Assembly: GCF_012769535.1 (NCBI RefSeq)
Contig: NZ_CP046565.1
Coordinates: 1,812,501 to 1,876,500, forward strand
DNA: 64,000 nucleotides
Direction of reading: 5' to 3'
Source: Methylococcus geothermalis
GTDB lineage: Bacteria; Pseudomonadota; Gammaproteobacteria; Methylococcales; Methylococcaceae
The position numbers were made by a program, and so were the translations under genes. Below, one piece after another: positions 34,402 through 41,055 of this stretch. How positions within the stretch are numbered: position 1 is the first letter of the stretch; each line of letters begins with the position of its first letter. The notes below the pieces were generated by a model that saw only the letters and a program-made list of their open reading frames with translations, searched no databases and was not told where the DNA came from.

Positions 34402-35934
34402 ATGCCTCATTCTCTTGCGGACGCGCTGCGTGACGCAGCAAGCCGTTATGCTTCGTTTCCGGCGATCCTGACGGCCGATTGCTGCGTCGACTTCGCGGAA
34501 TTCGACCGTTTGTCCGACGCCATTGCCGCCGGCCTCGCCGCCCGCGGCATAGGCAAGGGCGAGCGGATCGGCCTGTACTGCGTCAACTCGGCGGAATTCG
34601 CCCTGGCCTATGCCGGCATCCTCAAGGCCGGCGCCGCGGTCGTGCCCATCAACCTGCTGCTCAGCGTCGAGGAAGTGCGTTACAACCTCGCCGATGCCGA
34701 GGTCAGCGGGCTGATCTATCATGACCAGCTTGCGGCTGATGCCGGCGCGGTACTGGAGCGCCTGTTTCCGCTGAAGATTCGTGCCTGCATCGGCGGCGAC
34801 GGCCCGGACGGGCAGGCTTGGCGGGATTTGCTGGACGAGATGGCAGCACCTCCGATCGTTGACTTCGATGCCTCGGAAGATTTGGCCGCGATCCTTTATA
34901 CCTCGGGCACCACGGGCCGGCCGAAAGGCGCGATGCTGACCCACGGCAACCTGCTGGCGAACACCGCCAGCGTGCGGGAAGCCCTGGACTGGCGGTCCGG
35001 CGAGGACCGGGTACTGGTCGTGCTGCCGATGTTCCACGCCTTCGCCGCCACCGTCGGTATGCTCACTCCGCTCACCCACGGCTGTGCCCTGGTTCCGCTG
35101 GCGAAGTTCGAACCGGATCTGGTGGCCGATACCATCGGCCGGCACGGGGCCACCCTGTTTCTCGGGGTGCCCAGCATGTATGCCTTGCTGTGCCGGCTGC
35201 GTGACGATCGAATCGCCCGGTTCGGAACCATCCGCCTGTGCGTATCCGGCGGTGCGGCCCTCCCGCCCGCGGTGATGCAGCAGTTCCAGGACCGCTTTGG
35301 TCTGCCGATCCATGAAGGCGACGGTCCCACCGAATGTTCGCCGGTCACCTGCGTCAATCCGGTGGGCGGTCCCGTCAAATGCGGCACGGTCGGCTTGCCG
35401 GTGCCGGGCGTGGAAATGAAGATCGTCGACGAGCAAGGCGCCGAACTACCCGTCGGCGAGATGGGTGAAATCGCCGTGCGCGGCGCCAATGTCTTCAAAG
35501 GCTACTGGAAACAGCCCGAAGCCACCGAGGAAAGCTTTCGCGACGGCTGGTTCCTCACCGGCGACCTGGGGCATGTCGACGAGGACGGTTATTTCAGCAT
35601 CGTCGACCGCAAGAAGGACCTCATCATCGTCAACGGCATGAACGTCTATCCAAGGGTGATCGAAGACGTCTTGTGCCGGCATCCGGCGATCCGCGAAGTG
35701 GCCGTGGTCGGCGATCCGGACCCGTTGCACGGCGAGCGGGTGGTGGCCTATGTCGTGTTGGCAACCCCCGTCACCGAGGCGGAAATCCGCGCGTGGTGCA
35801 AACCCTCCCTGGGCCGCCACGAGATTCCCCGCCGGGTCGTGGCGCTCGAACAGCTGCCGCGGAACGCCGCCGGCAAGATATTGAAACGGCAGTTGCGGCG
35901 TCAGGGCGAGGTGGAGCGAGGGGTGGACTCATGA
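34402..35934 (+). CDS. AMP-forming acyl-CoA ligase (long-chain fatty-acid type)
   Basis: A 510-residue member of the ANL superfamily, which activates carboxylic acids as acyl-adenylates and transfers them to CoA. The P-loop-like A3 motif 'ILYTSGTTGRPKGAMLTH' (~residue 170), A5 'EGDGPTECSPV' (usual YG-TE replaced by DGPTE), A7 'GWFLTGDLGHVDEDGYF', A8 'VDRKKDLIIVNGMNVYP' and the A10 lysine in 'NAAGKILKRQLR' are all present. Substrate range is not visible in the sequence. It stands near the carbamoyltransferase/diiron locus and may supply acyl-CoA for it, though on the opposite strand. Confidence 0.9.
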   Translation: MPHSLADALRDAASRYASFPAILTADCCVDFAEFDRLSDAIAAGLAARGIGKGERIGLYCVNSAEFALAYAGILKAGAAVVPINLLLSVEEVRYNLADAEVSGLIYHDQLAADAGAVLERLFPLKIRACIGGDGPDGQAWRDLLDEMAAPPIVDFDASEDLAAILYTSGTTGRPKGAMLTHGNLLANTASVREALDWRSGEDRVLVVLPMFHAFAATVGMLTPLTHGCALVPLAKFEPDLVADTIGRHGATLFLGVPSMYALLCRLRDDRIARFGTIRLCVSGGAALPPAVMQQFQDRFGLPIHEGDGPTECSPVTCVNPVGGPVKCGTVGLPVPGVEMKIVDEQGAELPVGEMGEIAVRGANVFKGYWKQPEATEESFRDGWFLTGDLGHVDEDGYFSIVDRKKDLIIVNGMNVYPRVIEDVLCRHPAIREVAVVGDPDPLHGERVVAYVVLATPVTEAEIRAWCKPSLGRHEIPRRVVALEQLPRNAAGKILKRQLRRQGEVERGVDS

Positions 35935-36212: not shown

Positions 36213-38165
36213 TCAAGATCGAGATCGCCAGCGGATTTGCAGAGCCCATTTCAGCGCGGTGGTTTCGAGCGACAGATAGCCGGTCCAGATTCTCTTCCAT
36301 ACCTGGCGCGAGACCTCCGCGCCCCCCTTCCGTTCCATTTCGTCCATGTAAATCATGACGGCATCCCTTGCCCGGGCGGCATGGCCGGAAGCGAGATTGT
36401 CGATGCTGAGGTGCAGCTGGATGATGGCGGGGTCGATCCCATGGTCGCGCAGCAGGTCGATCAGCCGCATGTAGCCGGCGCCGAGTCCGCTGAGTTCGAT
36501 GGCGAGATTGAGGCCGAGCAGTTCTGGGAAATAGCGGCGGGGGTGCTGGCCGATGGCGAGGAGGTAGACCGGTATGTCGAAGGCGGCATCCAGGAAGCGC
36601 GGGTCCTGGGCGAAGGCTTCGCTGGCGAACGGCGGCAGCCGGATGCCGAGGTCGTCGAGCAGGCGGCGGTAGACGTTGGGATGGTTGCGTTCGGGCCGGC
36701 CGTTGCCCAGTTCGTCGGCGTAGATTTTCAGCAGATGGCGGTCGATGGTGTCCAGGTTTTCGGCAGCCGTGGCGATGCCGGCCAGCCAGCAGCCGTCGAC
36801 CAGGATGGTGGGCGCGAGCTGGAGGATGACCCATCGGCAGAAGTCCTTGCCGATCCGGGGTGGTACGGTGAGCGGGCGGTAACGCTCGATGTCGTGCCGG
36901 TATATGGCTTCGATGCGAGCGTGGAAAGCCGCCTCATCGTAGGGAAAAAAACGGCGGTAACCTCGTTGCAGTTGCATGAACAAGCGGGTCAGGCGGAGAG
37001 TCCGTTCCACGACCTCGGTGGCTTGACCGGGGATGTCGGACGTCGATTCGGCACCCAGCAGGGCGGTGTAAAACGCACGCTTCGAGCGCGGACCGGACTT
37101 CGGCCGTTGGTTCACGCGATTCGGCCGTGGAATGAAGGCCGAGCCGGTCGCTGCCATGTCGACGCTCCGGCTCTCATCTTCGATCCAGTCCAGGCAAACC
37201 CGCCGCTCGGCGGCATCGAACACGCCGAACATCGGTCCGCCGAAGTCCATGGCGCGGATCAGGCGGCTTTCTGCCGCGCAGGTTCGGTCCAGGTAGGGCG
37301 AATCGCGCAGCGCGTCGAGCAGCGGTTCCGGACCGGCTTGCGCCAGCCAGTCATCGAGGCTGCGTCCGGCGAGCAAGACCCTGCCGTGATGGCCGAGGGC
37401 ATGGGCCCGTTTGGCCTGGACGATACTGGCCATCGCCTCCCTGGCCTGGAGTCTGCGGGCCAATTGGCCGGCGGTTTCCTGGAGCAGTTCGGTGAACGAC
37501 AGGCAGTAAAGGGACCAGCCGGCATGGACGCGACCTTCGTCGCGATCCGTGCAAGCCTCCAGCGCGGCGCGGGCCAACGCGCGGCAGCGGCCGGTTTCGG
37601 CTGCATCGTCGTCATCCCACCAATCCGGTTCCCGCAGGCCATGGGCCAGAGTCCAGCCCAGCAGTTCCGGGAAGTAGCTGCGTGGGCGATGGAACAGGCA
37701 AAGCTGGACGGCCGGCAGCGTCCAGGCGAAATCGGGAATGTTGGGAGCGTGAAAGAAGGTGGGATCGTCCAGGGGAGGCAGAGTCGCGCCGGCGAGGGTG
37801 AGCTTTGCCCGGAACTTCAAGGGAGCCGAGGTGGCGGGCTCGTCGAGGCCGACGCTGCGGCAATACAGTTCGAACAGCTGGCATTCGGCGAGGCGGTGCG
37901 CCGTGGCCGGCTGCGCGGCGCGGGCCAGCCCGATGCCATCCAGCAAAAGCGTCGGCGCCAGGGCGAGAAGCACGGTGCGCCGTCCGGCTTCTTCTGTGGG
38001 ATTGGGCCGGACCCGTGGCGACCAGGGATTCCCGAAGCTCGGGCGCGTGCTGGCCCCCACGGCCTTGGCCAGCGCCGACTCGAAGAATGCCGATGCCCCC
38101 CGAAGCGTCTCGGCATCGGCGGGACCGTGCAGCAGCGCCCGGCACAGGCTGCGCAGTCCGGTCAT
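36213..38165 (-). CDS. tandemly duplicated haem-oxygenase-like diiron protein
   Basis: A 650-residue protein of the iron-containing redox enzyme group (haem-oxygenase-like fold, Haem_oxygenas_2). The C-terminal half (~residues 370-640) has the family's metal-site segments: 'ERNHPNVYRRLLDDL' and 'IIQLHLSIDNLASGHAARAR' with Glu, His and Asp ligands. The N-terminal half repeats the same scaffold, for example 'APTLLLDGIGLA' against 'APTILVDGCWLA' and 'RPRSYFPELLGWTLA' against 'HPRRYFPELLGLNLA', but lacks the clear ligand motifs. Relatives include UndA- and BesC-like oxidases. The ATG at 38165 overlaps the carbamoyltransferase stop by four bases, so the two are coupled. Confidence 0.75.
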   Translation of the reverse strand: MTGLRSLCRALLHGPADAETLRGASAFFESALAKAVGASTRPSFGNPWSPRVRPNPTEEAGRRTVLLALAPTLLLDGIGLARAAQPATAHRLAECQLFELYCRSVGLDEPATSAPLKFRAKLTLAGATLPPLDDPTFFHAPNIPDFAWTLPAVQLCLFHRPRSYFPELLGWTLAHGLREPDWWDDDDAAETGRCRALARAALEACTDRDEGRVHAGWSLYCLSFTELLQETAGQLARRLQAREAMASIVQAKRAHALGHHGRVLLAGRSLDDWLAQAGPEPLLDALRDSPYLDRTCAAESRLIRAMDFGGPMFGVFDAAERRVCLDWIEDESRSVDMAATGSAFIPRPNRVNQRPKSGPRSKRAFYTALLGAESTSDIPGQATEVVERTLRLTRLFMQLQRGYRRFFPYDEAAFHARIEAIYRHDIERYRPLTVPPRIGKDFCRWVILQLAPTILVDGCWLAGIATAAENLDTIDRHLLKIYADELGNGRPERNHPNVYRRLLDDLGIRLPPFASEAFAQDPRFLDAAFDIPVYLLAIGQHPRRYFPELLGLNLAIELSGLGAGYMRLIDLLRDHGIDPAIIQLHLSIDNLASGHAARARDAVMIYMDEMERKGGAEVSRQVWKRIWTGYLSLETTALKWALQIRWRSRS

Positions 38166-39925
38166 GGCAGTGTCTCCGGTTTGGTGAAGAGATGATCGCC
38201 GGCGACCAGGGCATCCATGCCCGATCCCAGGAACACGGCGAAGGCGTCTTCCATGCTGTGCACCATGGGTTTCCCCATGACGTTGAAACTGGTGTTGAGC
38301 AATACCGGCACCCCGCTCAGCCGGTGGAATGCTTCCAGAAGGGCATGAAAGCGCGGATTCCAACTCTGTTTGACGGTCTGCAACCGGCCGGTACCGTCCA
38401 CATGCACCACCGCCGGCACCCGCTCCCGTGCCTCCGGCCGGAACCGCAGGGTGCGCTCCATATACCGGGATTCCTGATAGGCCTCGAACCAGTCCGGGCC
38501 GTATTCGTGCAGGATGGCGGGAGCATAGGGCCGGAAGCGTTCGCGGAACTTGACCTCGCGGTTGATGCGCTCGCCGGTTTCGGCATGCCGGGGATCGGCC
38601 AGGATGGAGCGGTTGCCGAGCGAGCGGGGGCCGAATTCGGCCTTGCCCTGAAGCCAGCCCAGGATCTTGCCTTGGGCCAGCAGTTCGGCGGCGGCGCCGA
38701 TGAGGGCATCGCCGGGGAGGTGCCGAACCGGCACACCGGCGTAGCGGGCGAAGCGTTCGATGTCCGCGGCCGCGATCTCGCTGCCGAGATAAGGGGAGAG
38801 ATGGCCCGGTTCGAAGGATTGCCCGGGGTGATCTTCCCGGAAGGCGAGCCATGCCGCCCCCAGCGCAGTGCCGTCATCGGCCGGCGCCGGCGGTACGTAC
38901 AGCGCCCGGAACGGCGTCCCGCGCGGAATCTGGCCGTTGCAGACCGAATTCAGCGCGCAGCCGCCGGCCAGCGCGAGGTGTCCGGAACATCCGCGAGCAT
39001 GGAAGTTGGTGAGCAGGCGGTTGACGGTTTCGGCGAAAAAAAGCTGGCCCGTATGGGCGAGGTCGGCGGCGGATTCCGGCGCTTGCTCGGGATGCCGCCG
39101 GCGGGATTCGAGCCGTTGCAACCGGTCGAAAAACACAGCGTGGCCGGTCTTCAGGCGCAGGCCGTCCACCTGCATCATGTCCCGCAGCCAGCCCATCACT
39201 TCCGCGTCGGCGCGCCCGTAAGAGGCGAGCCCCATGACTTTCCATTCCTCGCCGCCGAGCCAGTCGAATCCGCAGAGTTCGGTGAGCTTCATATAGTAGA
39301 ATCCCAGGCTCTGCGGTCCGTCGAGTTTGGCCACGGGGCGCAGCCGGCCGTCGCGGTAGTCGAAGAACGCCATCGACCCGGTTTCGCCGTATGAGTCGAT
39401 CACGGCGCAGGCCGCGGTCTCGAAAGGGCTGCCGTAACAGGCCAGCGCGGCATGGCTGAGGTGATGGTCGTAGGCCCGGATACGGACCGGGACGCCGGGA
39501 AAATCGCGGCGCAGGCTCCGAGCCAGGTTGAGCAGACGGCTTTTCAAGGCATGGTGCTGGGCGGCTTGCATATGGTAGAGCTGATAGGGCTCCAGCCAGG
39601 CATGGAGCCGGCGGCCCGCATTGGCGAGAATACCCTCAGGCGACAGCCATCCCGCCCAGCGGGCGAGATGCTCGTGCAGAGGGCGCGGCTCCTGCCAGTT
39701 GCAGGCAATGACGAATTCATCGGCGTCGGCGCAATGCGCCTGCAACAGCGCAGGCGTTTGGAACAGGTCGTCTGGCGGGGCGTTCAAGGCCCGCTTGCTC
39801 TGGAGCCGGCGCTCGGCGGCTTCGGCGAACAGGATGCCGCCGTCCGGACCGACGATCGCCAAGGCCGGATCGTGGTAGGTCAGGCACAGGCCGAGATAAT
39901 AGGTTCTCGCTTTTGATGGCCGCAT
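38162..39925 (-). CDS. NodU/CmcH-type O-carbamoyltransferase
   Basis: A 587-residue carbamoyltransferase, which makes carbamoyl-adenylate from carbamoyl phosphate and ATP and passes the carbamoyl group to a hydroxyl. The N-terminal Kae1-like domain has metal-binding 'YDHHLSHAALACYGS' (~residue 145), 'GGEEWKVMGLASYG' and 'ALAGGCALNSVCNG'; the C-terminal YrdC-like transferase domain begins 'AEFGPRSLGNRSILADPR' and includes 'PVLLNTSFNVMGKP'. The ATG at 39925 is preferred; an in-frame TTG lies at 39940. It is the first gene of a pair with the duplicated diiron protein and is divergent from the AlkB-like gene by 20 bases. Confidence 0.88.
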   Translation of the reverse strand: MRPSKARTYYLGLCLTYHDPALAIVGPDGGILFAEAAERRLQSKRALNAPPDDLFQTPALLQAHCADADEFVIACNWQEPRPLHEHLARWAGWLSPEGILANAGRRLHAWLEPYQLYHMQAAQHHALKSRLLNLARSLRRDFPGVPVRIRAYDHHLSHAALACYGSPFETAACAVIDSYGETGSMAFFDYRDGRLRPVAKLDGPQSLGFYYMKLTELCGFDWLGGEEWKVMGLASYGRADAEVMGWLRDMMQVDGLRLKTGHAVFFDRLQRLESRRRHPEQAPESAADLAHTGQLFFAETVNRLLTNFHARGCSGHLALAGGCALNSVCNGQIPRGTPFRALYVPPAPADDGTALGAAWLAFREDHPGQSFEPGHLSPYLGSEIAAADIERFARYAGVPVRHLPGDALIGAAAELLAQGKILGWLQGKAEFGPRSLGNRSILADPRHAETGERINREVKFRERFRPYAPAILHEYGPDWFEAYQESRYMERTLRFRPEARERVPAVVHVDGTGRLQTVKQSWNPRFHALLEAFHRLSGVPVLLNTSFNVMGKPMVHSMEDAFAVFLGSGMDALVAGDHLFTKPETLP

Positions 39926-39945
39926 CGTGAGGTTCCGCAAAGCCC

Positions 39946-41055
39946 ATGAGCATTCTATCGAAAACCCGATCGGTGGCCATTTGGCCGCTGCCGTGGTGGA
40001 CCGGCTACGGACTCAGCCTGGTGTTTCCTCTGGCCGTCCTCGGCTTTCTCGCCACCGGTCCGCACCGGCCGGCGGCTGCGCTGCTCTGGACCCTGCCCAT
40101 GCTGGGCCTTCTGCTGGCCGAGTATCTCGGGCCGGCGGAAACCCGCGTGGTGCAAGGAGATGCGCCGCATCTTTTCTTCGACGGCATCCTCTATTTGCTG
40201 GCCGGACTGCAGGTGCTGAATCTGATCCTGCTCGGCCGGCTGGTGTCGCAACTCGGCTGGACTGGATTTTCCGAAATCGTGGCGAGCCTGGCCGATTTGT
40301 TCGCGATACGGGCGATGGTCTCCGCCGATTTCGTCTGCGCGGGCATCTGTCCGGCCCATGAGCTGATGCATCGGCGCTCCCGTGTGCAACGAAGGCTGGG
40401 ACGGCTGCTGCTCGCCTCGCTCGGCTACGACCATTTCTACGTCGCGCACAAGCTGGGACATCATGCCCGGCTGGGAACGGCCGACGACCCCTCGACTGCG
40501 CACAGAGGGGAGAGCTTCGAGGATTTCTATCGGCGCGGGCTGCGCCAGCAATGGCGCATCGCCTGGTCGGACCGGCGGGGGGCGGCGGTGGCGGGGCTGG
40601 TGTTCGAACTGGCATGGCTGGCGCTCTACGCCGCGCTGTTCGGCTTGCTGGCGGCGTTGGTGCTGCTGCATCAGGCGCGAGGCGCGGTACGGACCCTGGA
40701 ATCGGTGAATTATTTCCAGCACTACGGCCTGACCGAAGATTCCGGCCAGAGCGGGGCGATCGCATGGCGCAATGATTCGGCCCTCAGCCTGTTCATGTTT
40801 CTCGGGCTCAGCCGCCATGCCGATCACCATCTTCGGCCCGGAGTGAGTTATGCGGAGTTGCGGACGACGCCGGAAGGACCGCGGATGCCTTACGGCTACA
40901 TGGGCATGGCGCTGTGGGTGCAGCGCCGGAACGACAGCTACCGTCGATGGGCCGAAGCGCACCTTGAACGGGTCACTGCTTCAGGGAGCGCTTTGTCGAC
41001 GCGGCGCACACCCGGGGTCAGGTCATCGGAAACGGGTCTCGTGGAGACGTCGTGA
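39946..41055 (+). CDS. AlkB-like membrane diiron hydroxylase
   Basis: A 369-residue integral-membrane non-haem diiron protein. All histidine boxes of alkane hydroxylases are visible: 'HELMHRR' (~residue 138), 'HKLGHHA' (~168), 'NYFQHYGL' (~263, the AlkB hallmark NYxEHYGL with Gln in place of Glu) and 'LSRHADHHLRPG' (~292). About six hydrophobic segments surround them. Family members hydroxylate terminal methyl groups or related positions of lipophilic substrates using O2. The ATG at 39946 lies only 20 bases from the divergent carbamoyltransferase start, so their promoters overlap coding sequence of each other. Confidence 0.85.
   Translation: MSILSKTRSVAIWPLPWWTGYGLSLVFPLAVLGFLATGPHRPAAALLWTLPMLGLLLAEYLGPAETRVVQGDAPHLFFDGILYLLAGLQVLNLILLGRLVSQLGWTGFSEIVASLADLFAIRAMVSADFVCAGICPAHELMHRRSRVQRRLGRLLLASLGYDHFYVAHKLGHHARLGTADDPSTAHRGESFEDFYRRGLRQQWRIAWSDRRGAAVAGLVFELAWLALYAALFGLLAALVLLHQARGAVRTLESVNYFQHYGLTEDSGQSGAIAWRNDSALSLFMFLGLSRHADHHLRPGVSYAELRTTPEGPRMPYGYMGMALWVQRRNDSYRRWAEAHLERVTASGSALSTRRTPGVRSSETGLVETS

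Follow-up and report, generated by a model that had tools for sequence, protein, structure and literature searches.

We analyzed a three-gene locus at positions 36,213–41,055 of a 64,000-nucleotide stretch of the Methylococcus geothermalis genome (hereafter the window; NZ_CP046565.1, positions 1,812,501–1,876,500). Genes were called from open reading frames (ORFs) in the sequence, Pfam matches and comparison with solved structures. The first gene (36213..38165, minus strand) codes for a tandem, GvgC-like haem-oxygenase-like protein (HOLI) of 650 amino acids, whose residues 444–629 match PF14518 (E = 1.6e-24). Upstream of it on the same strand is a gene for a NodU/CmcH-type O-carbamoyltransferase (CT; 38162..39925; PF02543 and PF16861), which has 587 residues when read from its ATG, although a TTG at 39940 is also open as a start. 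The stop codon of CT and the start codon of HOLI share an ATGA overlap. The third gene, on the plus strand (39946..41055), encodes an AlkB-like integral-membrane hydroxylase of 369 amino acids (PF00487, FA_desaturase), and 20 bp (39926..39945) separate its ATG from that of the divergent CT gene, or fewer if CT begins at the TTG. A sequence-only reading of this DNA had described a carbamoyltransferase, a diiron-type protein and an AlkB-like hydroxylase with this same overlap and spacing, and both the coordinates and the Pfam families agree with it. The host genome is a single contig of 3.37 Mb and contains one match apiece for HOLI, CT and the AlkB-like protein.

Properties of the three proteins

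The diiron protein had also been described as duplicated, and this was borne out by profile comparison: the N-terminal domain of HOLI (residues about 40–345) matched the C-terminal domain (residues about 345–650) with a probability of 99.9 and E = 4.7e-34, versus 0.2–0.3 for three column-shuffled controls. Candidate metal ligands are concentrated in the C-terminal domain. In an alignment of 40 proteins, E485 was conserved in 39 and H495, E548, E557, H585, D589 and H595 in all 40, and the seven residues were invariant in a broader set of 58 diverse proteins. Most of these candidates are absent from the N-terminal domain, which retains one, E167 (36/40), aligned with E548. In haem-oxygenase-like dimetal oxidases/oxygenases (HDOs) the core helices bear a 3H/3C (or 3H/4C) ligand set, and the usual spacing is HxxxDxxH. 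The spacing between D589 and H595 is wider than this, and the seven residues are candidate ligands by sequence only.

A search of solved structures with the HOLI sequence returned only designed PPR proteins and a chitinase, which we took as chance matches. A profile search returned STIM1 together with weak matches to RohS, which aligned (E = 0.09) at the E/H motif DELGNG...NH. An AlphaFold2 model built from a 58-row alignment had a mean pLDDT of 92.7 and a pTM of 0.89, with a predicted helix broken at residues 589–594, between D589 and H595. When the modeled C-terminal domain was compared with solved structures by VIA-align, Z scores were 21.4 for RohS, 20.9 for HrmI, 20.2 for SznF and 16.9 for FlcD, followed by 13.6 for BesC, 13.2 for UndA and 11.6 for PolF; ranks 1–11 in VIA-align and ranks 1–13 in Foldseek were all RohS, HrmI or SznF. 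Thus, HOLI belongs to the HDO fold class, as judged from PF14518 and a model with Z up to 21.4, and its predicted C-terminal domain appears closest to the N-oxygenases RohS, HrmI and SznF, not to UndA. Several points weigh against drawing a function from this resemblance. The gap in Z is partly a matter of alignment length (about 260 aligned residues versus 208 for UndA), Foldseek gave just three matches at E ≤ 0.001, and a common fold is no proof of a common reaction. RohS, HrmI and SznF are the nearest solved folds, yet they are just about 13–17% identical to HOLI, and each has a single HOLI domain (plus a further C-terminal domain in SznF), whereas HOLI of the methanotrophs has two in tandem, the first of them degenerate. 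The N-terminal half matched TenA-like folds (Z about 12.5), possibly as helical-bundle background; the evidence for duplication is the profile comparison instead.

Among solved proteins, CT is nearest to NovN (9s2t), 7xb6 and GdmN, and TobZ was also matched. It aligned with NovN and GdmN and contains both Carbam_trans domains, as do NovN, GdmN, TobZ and the CTs of polyketide synthase (PKS) and fatty-acyl-AMP ligase (FAAL) clusters. Residues H154, H155, H158, D177, D350 and D351 are invariant in 16 proteins and presumably have the catalytic roles of the His/Asp motif. Against NF041651, the equivalog for nodulation NodU, CT scored 157.9 bits, below the cut-off of 1000. To our knowledge, no solved antibiotic O-carbamoyltransferase is paired with a HOLI protein. 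Plasmid-borne CTs were 33–46% identical to the window CT among the 20 listed of 309 records, and the best of those listed (45–46%) were from Eleftheria, Planktothrix and Nostoc. The five best are found in FAAL/acyl carrier protein (ACP) clusters (two), beside PKSs (two) and in a Rieske/P450 cluster (one).

The AlkB-like protein matched the alkane 1-monooxygenases 8f6t and 8sbb over about 210 of its 369 residues. Its HEXXH, HXXXHH, NYXXH(Y)G and RHXXHH motifs are complete in histidines and align with those of both structures, the third motif reading NYFQHYG, with the Y of HYG replaced by W in most of 18 proteins compared. The motif histidines (H138, H142, H168, H172, H173, H259, H291, H294 and H295) as well as H163 are invariant in 18 proteins. 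These features place it in the AlkB-type alkane monooxygenase family, with hydroxylation as the predicted activity. AlkB relatives are membrane enzymes with hydrophobic substrates. No rubredoxin gene is present in the cassette, and one match to rubredoxin lies elsewhere in the genome.

Joint inheritance in Methylococcales

Profile searches of 251 genomes of the order, with cut-offs of our own choosing (E ≤ 1e-40 for the AlkB-like protein, E ≤ 1e-150 for CT), detected HOLI in 91 genomes, CT in 87 and the AlkB-like protein in 101, or 90 after removal of 11 weak matches in family f6. All three genes occurred in 82 genomes, some but not all in 13 and none in 156; 95 genomes thus hold any of the trio. 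In three of the 13 partial genomes, CT fragments fell below the cut-off. The co-occurrence is significant by Fisher's test (p < 1e-54), a naive value that ignores shared ancestry. A smaller sample of 61 genomes, namely the window genome and 60 relatives, overlaps with the larger one and is not independent of it. Raw matches in this sample numbered 45 genomes for HOLI, 52 for CT (at any identity) and 48 for the AlkB-like protein. When CT was limited to at least about 48% identity (44 genomes, short fragments counted) and three weak f6 AlkB matches were dropped (45 left), all three genes were found in 43 genomes, none in 14 and a partial set in four, whose completeness is 70–89%. The locus is present in all six genomes of the window's genus.

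The genes were observed in two layouts. In the fetched loci of families f1–f5, HOLI lies directly 3' of CT on the same strand in all 37 loci holding both, at a spacing of −44 to +138 bp (a 4-bp overlap in 15), and the AlkB-like gene is divergent from CT in all 38 loci holding both, at most 244 bp away in 37 and 4.2 kb away in one; these gap sizes depend on script-chosen start codons. In family f8, 39 genomes contain the whole trio, and 34 of them (a hand count) have CT, HOLI and AlkB in this order on the same strand of a single contig; the order was confirmed in all 16 of these 34 loci that we fetched, which were picked for their layout. In two other f8 genomes the trio genes are split over contigs. 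Strict linkage is contradicted by three genomes of one f8 genus, in which HOLI and AlkB are together and CT is on another contig, and by one genome (G006) in which CT and AlkB are together and HOLI is apart.

The sequence-only reading had proposed a joint pathway and had named the lack of a conserved neighborhood in related genomes as evidence against it. The neighborhood proved to be conserved, with all three genes in 82 of the 251 genomes and in two layouts. The trio is a real unit, which travels together through both layouts and many surroundings, and this is the strongest result of our analysis. It is very likely that the three genes serve one pathway. Since genomes mostly have either the whole trio or none of it, it probably builds one molecule, which is probably oily and nitrogen-bearing. 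Such a nearly all-or-none unit in many methane-oxidizers points to a specific product in a group important to the methane cycle.

ORF clustering revealed no fourth conserved gene: among 43 loci, no other family was seen more than 7 times, and among the 16 f8 loci none exceeded 5. This clustering is rough, as its greedy frame choice kept CT in 42 of the 43 loci, the AlkB-like gene in 36 and HOLI in 34 (in the window itself, an antisense frame displaced HOLI), and a small or displaced fourth gene might be missed because known members were lost in this way. Three enzymes with no conserved others make a simple system for learning the role of CT and HOLI.

A gene for an acyl-CoA/AMP ligase of 510 amino acids (34402..35934, plus strand; PF00501) had been noted as a neighbor, and it is indeed nearby; its stated distance of 2 kb was wrong, as the two genes converge with 278 bp between the HOLI stop codon and the 3' end of the ligase gene. 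Its family occurs in only 7 of the 43 loci, with an identity of only 27% in two loci of genus g15. We rejected it as a member of the pathway and place it outside the cassette. We also considered a ferredoxin or reductase partner beside AlkB (clustering family 4, seven loci) and rejected it, as inspection of the sequence by eye suggests a TraB/GumN-like protein and not a reductase.

In 5 of the 16 f8 loci, the gene directly upstream of CT encodes a DUF4070-containing radical SAM protein of about 550 amino acids, and similar genes were seen on L170 and L173. Related B12-binding radical SAM proteins (26–32% identical) are encoded next to the second CT of family f2 and within a FAAL-P450-ACP-CT cluster of a roseobacter. 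A search of the window genome for radical SAM proteins gave weak matches only. It is possible that the radical SAM protein is an optional partner of this CT lineage.

The HOLI–CT pair outside the three-gene unit

A scan of named genomes with the HOLI alignment yielded 118 relatives, and we retained the 80 best. Among these 80, a CT lay on the same stretch in 69 loci, which range from Streptomyces to a cyanobacterium. GvgF-type CTs (at least 49% identical to the CT of Agrobacterium vitis) were found on 33 stretches and an AlkB-like gene on 31; none of the 33 GvgF-type stretches had an AlkB-like gene. A strict tie between HOLI and carbamoylation is weakened by the 11 stretches without CT, some of which are cut by contig ends, and by HOLI relatives in clusters with acyl-CoA dehydrogenase. 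Because HOLI occurs in these settings too, carbamates are not its sole context. Genome-wide checks for CT and AlkB, carried out in 16 genomes, showed HOLI together with a P0002-type CT (the type in methanotrophs; 50–53%) in a planctomycete (G063), MGR_bin175 (G062) and a USCgamma genome (G061). Among these three genomes, whose completeness is not given, an AlkB ortholog was not found in the latter two, and the planctomycete gave one distant match (36%), another point against a fixed three-enzyme system. Thus, the HOLI–CT pair is wider than the trio with AlkB.

The pair has a known counterpart in the gvg cluster, which is required for the antibiotic and herbicide formylaminooxyvinylglycine (FVG). 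In Pseudomonas fluorescens WH6, knock-out of either gvgC ("Heme-oxygenase 2") or gvgF (a NodU-family CT) abolishes the FVG phenotype, and the step of GvgF in the route is left open (excerpts of PMC8067088). A locus of Pseudomonas paralactis (L209) encodes a GntR/aminotransferase protein, GDSL, Haem_oxygenas_2, arginine-deiminase-like and LysE proteins, a CT, a class-III aminotransferase, a formyltransferase and two further LysE proteins, and by this Pfam content it is a gvg cluster, the small ORFs gvgB and gvgG being outside the comparison. The window HOLI is about 26–30% and the window CT 33% identical to the GvgC and GvgF counterparts in this locus. The core of gvg-like clusters consists of gvgA, B, C and F, and alm homologs of gvg genes have been described (both in excerpts of PMC8064604). 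As in the methanotrophs, a tandem HOLI and a NodU-family CT occur together in the gvg clusters of P. fluorescens WH6 and others, where both are needed for the product. Unlike the methanotroph loci, these clusters contain a GDSL esterase, a class-III aminotransferase, a formyltransferase and LysE exporters, and their CT is of another lineage; of the gvg genes, only those like gvgC and gvgF recur in the methanotroph loci, with gvgA (GDSL), gvgH (class-III aminotransferase) and gvgI (formyltransferase) having no counterpart among the conserved neighbors there.

The pathway had been called undescribed. For the CT–HOLI pair this does not wholly hold, because the pair matches GvgF and GvgC of the FVG and gvg-like clusters; the AlkB-containing methanotroph unit appears to be new. 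No AlkB–CT–HOLI version was found in the literature searched, as judged by titles and the beginnings of abstracts and with most subscription journals outside its scope, nor was a paper there that joins the terms heme-oxygenase-like, diiron and carbamoyltransferase. Besides PMC8064604, the aldgamycin papers listed (20 of 69) were syntheses and unrelated work. The simplicity of the three-gene unit makes the function of GvgC and GvgF testable.

We built a quick maximum-likelihood tree of 73 CTs, with the five best plasmid matches as outside CTs. A branch with SH-aLRT 93 had the 31 methanotroph CTs on one side; they joined, with support of 100, the CTs of an Eleftheria PKS cluster, a Nostoc PKS cluster, a Planktothrix Rieske/P450 cluster and two roseobacter FAAL/ACP clusters; the second CT of family f2 also fell in this group. 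The 25 GvgF-type and 11 other CTs lay apart from it. If this tree holds, the methanotroph and GvgF-type CTs would be separate lineages, and the pairing of CT with HOLI would then not merely reflect the descent of CT. Two observations detract from this: the program warned of long branches meeting, and the gvg CTs did not form one clade (three changes). A HOLI tree of 74 proteins showed no clean clades, with three changes for the methanotroph set and five for the gvg set. HOLI paired with at least two CT lineages would suggest that the two enzymes share a target group or work one directly after the other.

Several individual loci differ from these patterns. A plasmid of Pantoea sp. At-9b (L236, 3187-7006) encodes a CT that clusters with some of the gvg-like CTs; its neighbors are a GDSL protein and, in place of HOLI, a phytanoyl-CoA dioxygenase, as if one iron oxygenase had replaced another. 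On plasmids of Sinorhizobium meliloti and Streptomyces lavendulae, a tandem HOLI is accompanied by acyl-CoA dehydrogenase genes and neither stretch has a CT, which makes this a third type of surroundings for the family. The S. lavendulae stretch also holds an annotated 3-oxoacyl-ACP synthase III, and in S. meliloti HOLI adjoins a stretch 39% identical to that synthase. In Paraburkholderia caribensis, an annotated LodA/GoxA CTQ-dependent oxidase (L094, 4249-7659) includes a segment with 41% identity to the C-terminal domain of HOLI; it is possible that a quinone-cofactor oxidase and a diiron domain are fused here. A Methylotetracoccus genome has HOLI apart from a CT–AlkB pair on another contig, and a Methylolobus genome has HOLI, with no CT or AlkB match found in the genome.

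A possible pathway and its alternatives

In Methylococcales methanotrophs, the three genes probably form a tailoring cassette that is complete in itself, with a single modified metabolite, likely a lipid-like one, as its product. In the scheme that we infer, a common, hydrophobic substrate would pass through the three enzymes in order. The AlkB-like membrane diiron enzyme would hydroxylate an unactivated carbon of a hydrophobic chain, CT would convert that hydroxyl to a carbamate (-O-CO-NH2) using carbamoyl phosphate and ATP, and HOLI, with its C-terminal site only, would oxidize the carbamoylated product, most likely at nitrogen. The N-terminal half of HOLI, as a degenerate duplicate, would be retained for a structural or binding role. 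It had been suggested from the sequence that the hydroxylase creates the hydroxyl which CT caps. This stays plausible, as the CTs that group with the methanotroph CT belong to FAAL/ACP, PKS and Rieske/P450 clusters; the acyl and PKS settings of these relatives point to an acyl or polyketide chain as the substrate. We give an even chance to hydroxylation followed by O-carbamoylation of a hydrophobic substrate, with HOLI catalyzing a later step. N-oxygenation by HOLI, suggested by the modeled fold, is a more tentative proposal. HrmI and SznF act on amino-acid nitrogens (excerpts of the HDO review, 2026).

Alternatively, HOLI might cleave a C-C bond or desaturate the chain in the manner of UndA, BesC or MboA, with the carbamate serving as a protecting or leaving group and an end product that may lack it. 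UndA is a single-domain enzyme, and we know of no CT partner for it. UndA, a fatty-acid decarboxylase, resembles HOLI in its HDO fold and has three histidine and three carboxylate ligands, and other members of the HDOs perform such reactions on fatty and amino acids (excerpts of the HDO literature). Acyl chemistry would also fit the Streptomyces and Sinorhizobium loci, where HOLI has acyl-CoA dehydrogenase genes as neighbors. On the other hand, the predicted fold is closer to the N-oxygenases than to UndA, BesC and PolF, subject to the above effect of alignment length, and the 650-residue tandem build contrasts with single-domain enzymes. UndA-like C-C cleavage, which the sequence-only reading had raised, is therefore not our first choice (Z of 20–21 for the N-oxygenases versus 13.2 for UndA and 13.6 for BesC), and we consider cleavage or desaturation somewhat unlikely.

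The trio might instead make an amino-acid-derived relative of FVG, with HOLI and CT acting as GvgC and GvgF do and the AlkB-like protein adding an extra oxidation. This would agree with the homology of both proteins to those of L209, itself a gvg cluster by Pfam, with the requirement for gvgC and gvgF in FVG formation (PMC8067088, in excerpt) and with the predominant action of characterized HDOs on fatty or amino acids (HDO literature, in excerpt). However, the GDSL, aminotransferase, formyltransferase and LysE families are not conserved in the methanotroph loci, and the methanotroph CT belongs to a different lineage, close to the acyl and PKS CTs. The preference of AlkB relatives for hydrophobic membrane substrates, which is general knowledge, also argues against an amino-acid-derived product, and such a product appears unlikely.

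It is far less probable that HOLI is a sensor or regulator and that the AlkB-like protein and CT alone make a carbamoylated alcohol. A regulatory role has been suspected for GvgC, with regulatory and biosynthetic functions left open, and knock-out of gvgC in P. fluorescens alters the expression of 548 genes (excerpts of PMC8067088); this also counts against a catalytic HOLI, and one half of HOLI is a degenerate copy of the other. Yet knock-outs of gvgA, gvgR and gvgH likewise lower the expression of the cluster (excerpts of PMC8067088), and seven candidate ligands invariant in 58 diverse proteins would be needless in a pure scaffold. That the genes are neighbors by descent alone and have separate tasks is already nearly refuted: the trio is seen within one order only and a few genomes have one of its genes apart, but it is kept or lost together across 251 genomes in two differing layouts, and the HOLI–CT pair recurs in other phyla with another CT lineage.

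Returning to the scheme of hydroxylation, carbamoylation and a later oxidation by HOLI, a further version, which we regard as rather improbable, is that HOLI oxygenates the nitrogen of the carbamate made by CT. This would yield an N-hydroxycarbamate, a hydroxamate-like metal binder, or an O-NH2 group after rearrangement and loss of CO2. As its name implies, FVG carries an O-N bond and no carbamate; oxidation of a carbamate nitrogen, if it occurs, would explain why FVG needs both CT and HOLI. In that case, CT and a tandem HOLI would be a general module for building a functional group, and in methanotrophs, where an AlkB-type hydroxylase would supply its substrate, the module would produce a new class of lipid that might conceivably act as a membrane-bound copper or iron ligand. 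The reaction would be absent from the 2026 HDO review, which in the text available contains no word beginning with "carbam", and among five papers listed on N-hydroxycarbamates, judged by title and beginning of abstract, none concerned the biosynthesis of one.

We also considered methylcarbamate hopanoids as the product. Methylcarbamate bacteriohopanepolyols were reported in every genus of one screen and, in retrospect, also in Methylomonas methanica and Methylobacter, whereas methylcarbamate-aminopentol is absent in Methylococcus capsulatus (excerpts of PMC5100885). These compounds were rejected as a first choice, because the aminopentol form is absent in M. capsulatus though the locus occurs in six of six genomes of its genus, and because CT would make -O-CO-NH2, not N-CO-OCH3.

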